A stretch of DNA of 20,777 nucleotides from NCBI GenBank assembly GCA_018985225.1, contig JADGIF010000098.1, positions 1 to 20,777 on the forward strand. The letters are read 5' to 3'. A program made the translations under genes and the position numbers. Every line of letters starts with the position of its first letter. Position 1 is the first letter of the stretch. The notes under the pieces were generated by a model. It was not told the origin of the DNA, searched no databases, and worked only from the letters and a program-made list of their open reading frames with translations. Shown here one piece after another: positions 15,902-20,662 of this stretch. The DNA is from Amoeboradix gromovi. Lineage: Eukaryota; Sanchytriomycota; Sanchytriomycetes; Sanchytriales; Sanchytriaceae.

Positions 15902-17144
15902 ATGACTGTAAATGATAATTTTCCCTTGTTTGAAATGAATGAAGCTGAACAGCAATTCATTGAAATTACCAATTCATCGATAGATGATGCACAACGATTC
16001 CTTTCAATTACAGATAACCAAGTAGAGCATGCCATCCAACTATATTTCTTAAATGCAGAAAACCCACAGGATCTACAAAATATTCCGAATATACCTGCTC
16101 CGATAGTTCTTGAGCCGCAAGAAACCCCTAGCGTTGAAGAGGAAATTAGTCAAGACCACAATAGTTCTTATGACCCTGCAGGTGGAGAACCATCAGTCGA
16201 TGAAGACATTGACGATCAACAGATGGATTACCAAGCTTTTGAACATCTATTGCAAAACCCTGGATTCCATCATCGTCAACTTGAAGACCTAATGCATCAC
16301 GCTAATTCTCAATTTATGCCTCAGAGTAGACAGAGCAATGAACTATTTCCCCCACCAGCTCATTTAATACACCAATTACCAATTGACCGTGCGCAACAAA
16401 TTGCTAATGCACAATCCAAATGGATATTTCTAATTATTAGCAATCCCCAGGAGTTTGTATGTCAACAAATAAATAGAGACCTACTTTCTGATGATTTCAT
16501 TCAAGAAATTTTGAATAATTTCTACGTCGTCTACTATTTGCAAAATACTCCTCTTTCTGAGCAGTTCAAGCAGCTATATCCCTTTCCGAAGCCTCCTTAC
16601 ATATGCATAATCGATCCTCGTACGGGTGAGAGAGTACGTCAGTACAAAAGTGTGCATTCCTTGATGAAGGTTGATGTGAGTGAGTGGGCTGTTGAGTTAA
16701 CCTCGTTTTTAGAGGAGTATGATCTAAATAAGTCCTTTATTCAGACTATATCAAAGCAAGAAAAAAGAGTTGACGAAATGACGGAAGAAGAACAAATAGA
16801 ATTGGCGCTGCAAGAGAGTATGGGAGCTCCTAAAGACAGCAAGGATTTAACAATAAATAATGATCAAGGGCATTTTAGCACCCGACTGACACCAAAAGAG
16901 ATAGAAGTTGAACATGGAGTGCGTGTTGCAATTAGATTGCCAAGTATTTCTTATCACTAATATAGATGCAAGCAGACTGACTCTACAGGTTGACGAGAGT
17001 ACAAGTAATGGTGAATTGTATAGCCATGTGAAAACAAGGGTTAATGAGCCATTCGAGCTCTATTTACAAGAGATGTTCCCACTAAACGGAAAAGTCTTGG
17101 ATTTTATAAAAGGACCAAGTTTGTTTACAGTAAAGCTTATTTGA
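15902..17144 (+). CDS. UBXN7: UBA-UAS-UIM-UBX protein, Cdc48/p97 cofactor (UBXN7/Ubx5-like; one 22-nt intron)
   Basis: Removal of the intron at 16944-16965 gives 406 residues. Domains: UBA-like (about 12-52, ending EHAIQLYF), thioredoxin-like UAS (about 145-275, with QSKWIFLIISNPQEF and PYICIIDPRTGE), UIM (about 293-308, EEEQIELALQESMG) and C-terminal UBX (about 336-406: VRVAIRLPNASRLTLQVDES, PFELYLQEMFP). This order is that of UBXN7/Ubx5, which links Cdc48/p97 to ubiquitylated substrates and cullin ligases. The UBX loop has MFP where many family members have FPR. The frame is open from 15857 but the first ATG is at 15902. AATAAA lies 2 nt after the stop. It converges with the Tho1 gene (21 nt). 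Confidence 0.93.
16944..16965 (+). other. 22-nt spliceosomal intron in the UBX gene
   Basis: It begins GTATTTC and ends CACTAATATAG. Without splicing the frame stops at 16960, inside the UBX domain. With splicing, RLP joins NASRLTLQV and the UBX fold is complete. The coding length of 1221 nt is divisible by three. The branch motif ACTAAT is followed by ATAG, the same spacing as in the 19-nt introns. Confidence 0.88.
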
Positions 17145-17165
17145 CCAATAAATAATATTTACTAC

Positions 17166-17648
17166 TTAATATGGTTTGGATTTTCTAGCATTAGAACCGG
17201 AGGAATTAATAAATTTACCACTGCGTTGACGATTGCTGTTTTTATTGGATTTCGGTTTATTTGGTTTAGGTTTAAATTTTGAATCGGGATCATCCTTAGT
17301 TAAAGTACCAAAACGCATCATTCTTTCAATTTTCAAATCCAATTCAGAAGGTTCACCGCCAAACTTGACAATGCGTTGCTTCCTTTCTAAATATTCAGTG
17401 TGCCAAACTTGCTCTTTATTGAGATCGTTCTCCGGAACATCAGCAGTCTTCATTTCATCATTGACTTCAACTTTAACGTCATTTTCCTTTTCTTCATCAG
17501 CCAAAAGTTGCTCAACAGTTTTATTCTCTTTTGTGGTCAGCTCGAACACACGCTCTACTAGATCATCTTTACGACCATGTAAAGGAAGATTATGTGTTTC
17601 TAATATCTTTTTTAATTCGGTAACTTTGAACTTCTTAATAGTTTCCAT
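17166..17648 (-). CDS. THO1: SAP-domain mRNP protein (Tho1/SARNP/CIP29-like)
   Basis: A 160-residue protein. The N-terminal SAP domain (about 4-38) reads FKVTELKKILETHNLPLHGR then KDDLVERV, a helix-linker-helix DNA/RNA-binding motif. After an acidic linker, KFGGEPSELDLKIERMMRFGT (about 95-115) contains the RFG helix motif seen in Tho1/SARNP, which contacts the DEAD-box helicase UAP56/Sub2 in the family. The C-terminus is Lys/Asn/Ser-rich and disordered. A role in co-transcriptional mRNP assembly and export is inferred. AGTAAA lies 2 nt past the stop (17158-17163). No intron. Confidence 0.85.
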   Translation of the reverse strand: METIKKFKVTELKKILETHNLPLHGRKDDLVERVFELTTKENKTVEQLLADEEKENDVKVEVNDEMKTADVPENDLNKEQVWHTEYLERKQRIVKFGGEPSELDLKIERMMRFGTLTKDDPDSKFKPKPNKPKSNKNSNRQRSGKFINSSGSNARKSKPY

Positions 17649-17787
17649 AGGTTACAGGGAGAAAGTTAAACAAACATAAGTAGTCCAAGTGATAACACAA
17701 CTTTTCAGTTACTATATTTAACAATAACTGGTATAAAATTCACTTCCGATCGCTGCAAACAATAGCCTGTGAAAATGTGCAAAATAA

Positions 17788-17861
17788 TGGTTCCTGCCAG
17801 GCTCGAACTGGCGACCTTGTCCTTGTAAGGGACACGTGATAACCACCTACACCAAGGAACC
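17788..17861 (-). tRNA. tRNA-Val (anticodon UAC)
   Basis: The minus strand folds into a complete 74-nt cloverleaf including the discriminator. The acceptor stem is GGTTCCT paired with AGGAACC, then discriminator A; the D arm contains GTGTAGGTGGTTATCAC; the anticodon stem TGTCC/GGACA encloses loop CTTACAA with anticodon TAC; the T arm is GCCAG-TTCGAGC-CTGGC. There is no intron. A short T run (ATTATTTT) follows, suitable for Pol III termination. The TTCGAGCCT B box and the A-box region in the D arm would form the internal promoter. It reads the GUA codon. Confidence 0.97.
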
Positions 17862-17939
17862 ATAAACTGCATGACACTTTAAGTATGTTAAACTCTATAC
17901 CATTTTCCAATGTTATAACATCTGTCTCTCCCTCTAACA

Positions 17940-19395: not shown

Positions 19396-19401
19396 TTTGG
19401 A

Positions 19402-19454
19402 CCAATCAGCATCGATAATTTATAAATGCGTTGGAAATCGTTTTATAGACCAAT
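19402..19454 (+). promoter_or_regulatory. Histone H2A promoter: two CCAAT boxes and a TATA box
   Basis: GGACCAATCAGC carries CCAAT at 19402-19406, TATAAA lies at 19421-19426, and GACCAATCAAATC carries a second CCAAT at 19450-19454. The paired ACCAATCA elements and the TATA sit 32 to 84 nt upstream of the ATG at 19486. The layout is typical of replication-linked histone promoters. Confidence 0.65.
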
Positions 19455-19485
19455 CAAATCGCTTCATTTGTGACTTAAAAAGAAA

Positions 19486-19917
19486 ATGTCCCAGTTGAAT
19501 CAGAACATGGCAGGCGCAGGTAAAGGAGGAAAGAAAGAAGCATCAGGAGCAAAGTCAAAGTCTAGATCTAGTAAAGCTGGATTACAATTTCCAGTTGGTC
19601 GTATCCATCGTTTACTAAGAAAGGGTAATTATGCGCAACGTATAGGAGCAGGAGCACCAGTGTACTTGGCAGCCGTATTGGAATACCTAAGTGCTGAAAT
19701 TCTTGAGTTGGCAGGAAATGCAGCAAGAGACAATAAGAAAACGAGAATCATTCCTCGACATTTACAATTGGCAATCAGAAATGATGAAGAACTAAACAAG
19801 CTGCTAGGAAGCGTCACTATTGCACAAGGTGGAGTCTTACCAAATATCCATGCTGTTCTTCTACCAAAGAAAGTTAAGGGAGCCGGTAAAGGACCAGCTG
19901 ACAGTCAAGAATATTAA
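19486..19917 (+). CDS. H2A: Histone H2A with H2A.X-type SQEY tail
   Basis: A 143-residue core histone. The fold is fully conserved: [69 protein letters not shown] and [13 protein letters not shown]. The C-terminus ends DSQEY; the SQ-E-[phi] motif is the DNA-damage phosphorylation site that defines H2A.X, so this gene likely serves as both canonical H2A and H2A.X. The start could be M1 (19486) or M8 ([10 protein letters not shown], 19507); the longer is annotated. AGTAAA overlaps the stop (19917-19922). No histone partner gene is in the window. Confidence 0.96.
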
Positions 19918-20097
19918 GTAAATTATTATATTTTCATTGCGCCCGCGCTTCATACTTTTAATCAATCATTTTACAAGTTATAGCAGCCGGACACTGGTGA
20001 AATCCAAGCTCTTATCGGTTGAAGAATAGATAATTCATTATCCACTCTTCTGTAGATCTTTCAAAAGTACAAAACTAAAGGCATAAAAAAAGAGTAT

Positions 20098-20662
20098 TTA
20101 CTTTTTCTTTGCCAACTGGTTGCTCAACCATTCCAATCCTTCATATAATCCATCCCCGCTGGTAGCACAAGTTGCTTGAATATACCAATTTCGCTGACGT
20201 AAAGCATGTAATCCTAACTTGTCAGTGATTTCTGCGGCACTCATTGCATTTGGCAAATCCTGTTTATTCGCAAACACTAATAAGACTGCATCTCGCAGTT
20301 CATCTTCATTAAGCATTCTCTGTAATTCATCTCTGGCTTCATTTACTCGATCTCGATCATTACTGTCCACTACGAAAATAATTCCCTGAGTGTTTTGAAA
20401 GTCTACGTTAGTAAGGGTTACAATGTCTCCATAGAGGCCTGATTTTATCTTGTCCACCCACATCCCACACAGTAAATGAGATGTTTTTATACTCGACTGT
20501 TTCTACATTGAACCCGATCGTTGGAATCGTCGTTACTATTTCACCCAGCTTTAACTTGTACAAAATAGTGGTTTTACCTGCCGCATCTAAACCAACCATT
20601 AATATACGCATCTCTTTCTTACCAAATAAGCCTTCAAACACTTTCGAAAATGAGAGTCCCAT
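20098..20662 (-). CDS. ARF1: ADP-ribosylation factor GTPase (one 19-nt intron)
   Basis: Splicing out 20403-20421 gives exactly 181 residues, the ARF1 length. It starts [14 protein letters not shown], with Gly2 for N-myristoylation and an amphipathic helix. GTPase motifs: GLDAAGKTT (P-loop), PTIGFN (switch 1), [13 protein letters not shown] (switch 2), NKQD and the CATSG motif. The intron splits the Tyr codon in LWRHYFQNTQG. A frame extending upstream to 20770 is not ARF-like, so the conserved MGLS start at 20662 is used. It recruits COPI and other coats on Golgi membranes (family knowledge). AGTAAA overlaps the stop (20097-20102). Confidence 0.97.
20403..20421 (-). other. 19-nt spliceosomal intron in the ARF1 gene
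   Basis: GTAACCCTTACTAACGTAG on the minus strand: GT start, perfect TACTAAC branch site, then GTAG end. It is the strongest of the four because ARF is so conserved. Only this excision yields RHYFQNTQG and a 181-residue protein; the unspliced reading gives RHCNPY and a stop. Confidence 0.95.

Follow-up and report, generated by a model that had tools for sequence, protein, structure and literature searches.

In the 20,777-nt stretch of DNA analysed here (the window), four protein-coding genes are each interrupted by a segment of 19–22 nt, and these segments are almost certainly U2-type spliceosomal introns belonging to a genome-wide set of the same narrow length range. All four follow one architecture, GTA-N7 or N10-YTAAY-N-TAG, in which a single base separates the YTAAY block from the terminal TAG, and in every case (4/4) excision joins two open frames. 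The positions and lengths given by the original prediction (19, 19, 19 and 22 nt) proved exact, and the GTA start, the TAG end and the identical spacing between branch site and AG that it described are present in all four. Its central proposal, that of ultra-short introns with a fused branch/3' site, is borne out by frame joining and motif counts: the introns look real, and the class extends over the assembly.

20403-20421, minus strand: 19-nt intron of the ARF1 gene, sequence GTAACCCTTACTAACGTAG
18395-18413, plus strand: 19-nt intron of the HP1/chromobox gene, sequence GTAAAATGTACTAACTTAG
3369-3387, minus strand: 19-nt intron near the 3' end of the MyTH4-domain gene, sequence GTAACTAAAATTAATATAG
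16944-16965, plus strand: 22-nt intron of the UBXD7-like gene, sequence GTATTTCTTATCACTAATATAG

Frame joining and length distribution

The window is contig 1 of an assembly of 6,779,989 bases in 366 contigs, with a GC content of 36.6%. Frame joining was assessed in a sample comprising the window and twenty 10-kb stretches from contigs 2–21, 220,777 bases in total, whereas the strict motif, GTA-Nk-YTAAY-N-TAG, was counted over the whole assembly. All 13 strict 19-nt matches in the sample join two frames; two of these joins are in phase 0 with a delayed stop, and fixed scoring alone gave 11/13. Joins were also obtained for 2/4 strict matches at 20 nt, 2/4 at 21 nt and 1/3 at 22 nt. The real motif thereby joins 18 of its 24 matches at 19–22 nt, as against a mean of 0.68 for 179 permutations of the branch block; the highest permutation reached 11 joins, and the top permutations resemble the real motif and partly match the same introns.

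In a loosened scan of the sample, the ends were relaxed to GT, YTRAY and HAG, and the spacing between branch block and acceptor was varied from 0 to 8. At a spacing of 1, joins numbered 14/24 at 19 nt, 3/15 at 20 nt, 2/13 at 21 nt and 1/7 at 22 nt, followed by 2/10 at 23 nt (both with GTC starts), 1/15 at 25 nt (a longer reading of an intron already counted) and 1/6 at 26 nt, while none of the 60 matches at 15–18 nt joined frames. With other spacings no length gave more than two joins, and several of those read the same introns again. The sample also contains a gene that by eye is Ras/Rheb-like (locus L009, minus strand, position 2723), joined by a 19-nt intron ending in TTAAG; AAG acceptors are probably also used. 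A scan of frame transitions for any GT..AG pair of 12–120 nt was not discriminating, as it solved 79/89 transitions against 67–83 in controls; within it, GTA..TAG pairs peak at 19–20 nt.

Independent loci gave a comparable picture. These comprised 20 successive entries from the list of 19-nt matches, together with all 13 listed sites of 18 nt and 7 of the 15 sites of 17 nt; flanks ended at about 146 codons. By the fixed rule 19/20 of the 19-nt loci join, and the twentieth does too if a stop 35 codons further on is allowed; at four of the 20 the frame remains open for some distance even when unspliced. At 17–18 nt 2/20 loci join, each weakly, with 21 codons downstream, and 5/20 sit inside frames that are open, or nearly so, without splicing.

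The genome-wide counts, in which the GT..AG ends and YTAAY are imposed by the search pattern itself, show where the class begins. The strict motif occurs 16 times at 16 nt, 15 times at 17 nt and 13 times at 18 nt (a complete list of 44), then 274 times at 19 nt and 142 times at 20 nt, with a further 117 matches at 21–23 nt (54/29/17 among the 100 listed). The motif count thus jumps about twenty-fold from 18 to 19 nt, above the floor formed by 16–18 nt, and at 23 nt has returned to near that floor. Against a background of 15 per length, matches at 19–23 nt are in excess by about 458, and the 20 joined introns of 19–22 nt in the sample, two of them with AAG acceptors, scale to about 614. The genome-wide set, judged from these sequence counts, seems to comprise roughly 450–600 introns, nearly all of 19–22 nt. 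With an estimated gene density of about one per kilobase in the window, this corresponds to perhaps one intron per ten genes.

The composition of the motif matches is as distinctive as their length. Among 100 listed 19-nt matches (of 274), position +4 is A 36, C 17, G 14 and T 33, position +5 is T 70, A 19, C 11 and G 0, and position +6 is T in 67; the base preceding YTAAY is A in 59. Zero G at +5 is extreme at 36.6% GC, although part of the deficit reflects a general poverty in G, which is scarce over positions 5–9. At 20 nt, 4 of the 100 listed matches (of 142) carry G at +5 and 67 carry T. The 5' site of U12-type introns, RTATCCTT, does not agree with the predominance of T/T at +5/+6 in these 100 + 100 listed matches. 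In the 19-nt introns the adenosine presumed to form the branch is base 14, at a distance of 5 nt from the intron end.

Position within genes is likewise skewed. Both gene ends are visible for 16 of the 20 sample introns, and 13 of the 16 lie in the 3' half (0.38–0.97 of the coding length, p = 0.02). In the flanking set, no locus of the 20 has fewer than 138 open codons upstream, whereas at 13 a stop follows within 110 codons downstream. Among all sample matches of 17–24 nt, in any frame, none was recognisable as an intron behind a short first exon. Intron-poor genomes usually show a 5' bias of their introns, and this lean toward the 3' ends of genes is therefore unexpected.

Conserved proteins across the junctions

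The genes that carry the four window introns each consist of two exons:

20098-20662, minus strand: ARF1 gene, exons 20422-20662 and 20098-20402
17940-18477, plus strand: HP1-type chromodomain/chromoshadow gene, exons 17940-18394 and 18414-18477
15902-17144, plus strand: UBA/thioredoxin/UBX-like gene, exons 15902-16943 and 16966-17144
3305-5663, minus strand: MyTH4 protein gene, exons 3388-5663 and 3305-3368

Each intron had been claimed to be required for restoring a conserved domain, and this holds for two of the four. The ARF1 junction falls in codon 81, inside the Pfam Arf domain (5-176), and the spliced product aligns to rat ARF1 without a gap across the junction, at 366 bits. In the HP1 protein the junction, in codon 152, lies inside Chromo_shadow (116-163), and the spliced product aligns to Chromobox protein homolog 5 without a gap at that point. 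The claim is less secure for the UBX-like protein, with its junction in codon 348: the Pfam domains Thioredoxin_7 and UBA_4 and the match in the PDB (Protein Data Bank) to UBX domain-containing protein 7 all lie upstream, the UBX domain over the junction scores 19.3 bits, below the Pfam cut-off of 21, and a search of the UBX segment against the PDB returned one spurious match only. It does not hold for the MyTH4 protein, where the junction is in codon 759 and the last exon encodes a 20-residue tail without a recognised domain. Two MyTH4 relatives with 60–61% identity, both database predictions, stop at the same residue or five residues further on; if splicing was not considered in those predictions, the intron position may be shared. 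A search of viral contigs for the MyTH4 family found 459 stretches that fit a pattern and no relative.

The Pfam evidence extends beyond the window. Nineteen spliced proteins were scanned (4/4 from the window, 7/16 of the other sample introns and 8/20 of the flanking-set loci), and in 14 of them the junction is spanned by a domain that scores above the cut-off: Arf, Chromo_shadow, Thiolase_N, Myosin_head, GH31 C-terminal, Aa_trans, EFG_C, Arginase, Pyr_redox_2, G_glu_transpept, Adap_comp_sub, HEAT_2, PH_10 and Vps35. This share is biased upward because recognisable genes were favoured in choosing the proteins. The alignments of eEF2, thiolase and myosin VIIa show no gap at the splice junction.

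Splicing machinery, proposed mechanism and rival explanations

The assembly encodes much of the machinery that such introns would need. The U2 small nuclear RNA (snRNA) lies on contig 39 (102.1 bits) and the U6 snRNA on contig 107 (65.1 bits), both above the gathering score, with GUAGUA and ACAGAGA retained; the pairing elements of both look canonical, the U6 ACAGAGA being intact despite the scarcity of G at +5, and the YTAAY of the four window introns is complementary to U2 GUAGUA. On the protein side there is a U1-70K of 175 residues, with the U1-70K N-terminal domain and an RNA recognition motif (RRM), and a U2AF65 relative of 415 residues (locus L034, 1480-2727, minus strand) that scores 167 bits against a family cut-off of 310. 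When the latter is aligned to PDB chains named U2AF 65 kDa subunit, the match takes in the end of RRM1, the whole of RRM2 and, at a weak level, the third domain; an RS-rich start is not visible by eye. Such features would suit a protein that has given up recognising a polypyrimidine tract. An Rfam scan of the window itself gave no match. The sterically adapted spliceosome that had been predicted finds no support in U2 and U6; the points that do look odd are the missing +5 G, the failure to find a U1 snRNA and the U2AF65 relative, in which RRM1 is recognisable only in part.

We infer from these features that splicing may proceed as follows. Each intron begins with a short 5' site (GTA-N-T-T), continues with a few free bases and closes with the fused branch/acceptor block (R)YTAAY-N-TAG. 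U2 would pair through GUAGUA with YTAAY, the AG would be located by its fixed distance behind the branch site and not by a polypyrimidine tract, and selection of the 5' site would need little beyond GTA. The 19-nt floor, with the branch adenosine at position 14, would most likely mark the shortest distance between 5' site and branch that can be bridged; ordinary U2-type splicing pushed to its geometric limit is the likely description. With less assurance than for the introns themselves, we lean toward a more comprehensive reading: a slowly evolving opisthokont nucleus in which essentially all introns are of 19–22 nt, handled by a 'ruler' spliceosome that keeps 5 nt between branch and acceptor, admits no branch adenosine before position 14 and has dropped recognition of a +5 G, its few introns lying mainly toward the 3' ends of genes.

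Several observations weigh against the reading of these segments as a genome-wide set of U2-type introns. The U1 snRNA was not found by the Rfam model, and a pattern built from its 5' end and a stem-loop gave three matches, none recognisable as U1 by eye, though neither result shows that it is absent. Five of the 19 spliced proteins lack an above-cut-off domain across the junction: the MyTH4 protein, the UBX-like protein, a membrane protein without a family, a GRAM-TBC protein whose junction falls between domains, and an armadillo protein with below-cut-off matches only. One 14-nt match in the sample also joins short frames (47 and 34 codons). The control in which the motif was read backwards is uneven, with 51 matches at 19 nt and 34 at 20 nt, and it exceeds the real pattern at 16–18 nt (217 vs 44) and at 21–23 nt (119 vs 117); weight was therefore placed on neighbouring lengths and on frame joining. 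Finally, the genome-wide count took in YTAAY-N-TAG blocks only, so that introns with other branch sites would escape it, and scans of the sample for conventional donors (GTAAGT, GTATGT, GTGAGT and GT..CTRAY..YAG, at 24–300 or 24–120 nt, with scrambled donors as control) showed no excess over controls, though such scans are weak.

These last points bear on the most serious rival, that of an ordinary short-intron genome in which introns span a broader range of lengths and those of 19–22 nt are simply the ones most readily spotted. The search with a single motif and the difficulty of seeing conventional introns without RNA speak in its favour; yet conventional donors do no better than scrambled ones, and the motif at 25–72 nt joins nine times in the sample, seven of these being longer readings of counted introns and two being others, and we regard it as unlikely. 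Far less probable is that sequencing or assembly errors, or pseudogenes, produced frame breaks that are closed by chance GT..AG pairs. Such pairs of 12–120 nt do solve 79/89 transitions, and scrambled dinucleotides do as well, but a shared architecture at 19–22 nt would not arise from errors, strict 19-nt joins (13/13 and 19/20) contrast with 0/60 and 2/20 in the controls, permuted motifs average 0.68 joins, and many of the affected genes are conserved housekeeping genes. We give least credence of all to removal of the segments from DNA instead of RNA, in the manner of the internal eliminated sequences of ciliates. Short, precise and frame-restoring segments would be expected there too, but the GT..AG ends, together with a YTAAY that is complementary to U2 and constant in its spacing, argue for splicing, as does the retention of U2 and U6 snRNAs, U1-70K and the U2AF65 relative, and an insertion in eEF1A, a lineage marker, speaks against a ciliate.

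Lineage, precedents and significance

The eEF1A protein aligns without gaps to PDB eEF1A entries, presumably those of yeast and mammals, through the segment of the opisthokont-specific insertion. The description of the genome as fungus-like is compatible with this; the remaining markers, namely the MyTH4 protein, TSP1 repeats and a myosin among the spliced genes whose best PDB match is myosin VIIa, fit a fungus, other Holomycota or Holozoa alike. The TSP1 repeats are three Spondin-type stretches in a protein at window 7500-8504 (plus strand), and such stretches are unusual for a fungus. None of these markers singles out Holozoa: Paraphelidium, nucleariids and Gonapodya are reported to have class XV myosins (PMC6299283). 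In a ranking of matches to eL15 the best scores lie close together and favour no lineage.

Other features of the window lie apart from the introns. A broken transposase-like stretch occupies 8603-9315 (plus strand); its piece 8813-9133 resembles OrfB_IS605 at 25.4 bits against a cut-off of 30.5, the other two searched pieces gave nothing relevant, and the stretch is a possible TnpB/Fanzor relic. At 3304/3305 the stop of a plus-strand frame (2942-3304, no Pfam match) abuts the stop of the MyTH4 gene on the opposite strand with zero bases between them, and a 286-residue frame at 10363-11223 (plus strand) has no Pfam match at E 0.01.

Precedents for single properties of these introns are known. 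Chlorarachniophyte nucleomorphs (Bigelowiella, Lotharella, Amorphochlora) have GT..AG introns of 18–23 nt, 70.3% of them of 19 nt in B. natans (PMC4494063), with relatively high intron density and no branch-point signature in the B. natans nucleomorph (PMC2483917). They share the size class, but are relict nuclei of algal endosymbionts, whereas here the range is 19–22 nt with 18 nt at background, in an opisthokont-like nucleus with few introns and a strict branch block. The 224 introns of mikrocytids (PMC10245619; Mikrocytos mackini, Paramikrocytos canceri) likewise combine an ultra-short, narrow range with conserved sequence and low number. They measure 16–17 nt, whereas 16–18 nt is at background here, and they belong to parasites within Rhizaria whose genes are very divergent and whose spliceosome is reduced. 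In the ciliate Stentor coeruleus (PMC9505925) the branch adenosine, at position 10 of 15 or 11 of 16, lies 5 nt before the intron end as it does here, and the most abundant intron, GUAAUUUUUAUAUAG, also lacks a +5 G; its introns of 15–16 nt differ, however, in numbering thousands and having no strong branch consensus. Among opisthokonts, Yarrowia lipolytica has the same gap of 2 nt between branch motif and AG and no polypyrimidine tract, but compared with those of other yeasts its introns are described as rather long (PMC2483917). Dicyemids, the nearest animal case found, have very short and uniform nuclear introns (26.2 +/- 1.9 nt, n = 16; PMC2222250); these are longer than those described here, lack a branch signature and have a weak 5' site (PMC2483917), and the genes are highly divergent.

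Irimia and Roy (2008) set apart two opposed classes, namely ultra-short introns that are fairly dense and carry weak signals, and introns that are few and carry strict ones (PMC2483917). The present genome unites the size of the former, as in nucleomorphs, with the sequence rigor of intron-poor yeasts; mikrocytids already unite both classes, and here the same is seen in what is apparently another supergroup and in conserved genes. The size class and the fused branch/acceptor each have precedents; what is new is their combination in an opisthokont-like nucleus, and the special features are this combination and the sharp 19-nt floor. Phrase matching in open-licence PMC articles, which is no proof that such introns are unpublished, returned no paper that describes introns of 19 nt in any opisthokont, fungi included, and passages from two papers on fungal introns and sanchytrids (PMC8476143, PMC8371127) contain no comparable introns.

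If these conclusions are correct, this would be the second independent case, after the mikrocytids (PMC10245619), in which introns are at once ultra-short, few and rigid in sequence, and the first known to us from an opisthokont-like genome whose genes are well conserved and can be aligned. It would also provide a new test case for the minimum intron size that the splicing machinery can handle. As proteins such as ARF1, eEF1A and eEF2 are close to well-studied ones, the physical limit on intron length could be approached by homology modelling and by reporter assays in laboratory yeast. The 5 nt from branch to intron end equal those of the Stentor introns as described, while the distance from the 5' end to the branch differs (14 vs 10), and the comparison of the two systems thereby separates the two constraints.

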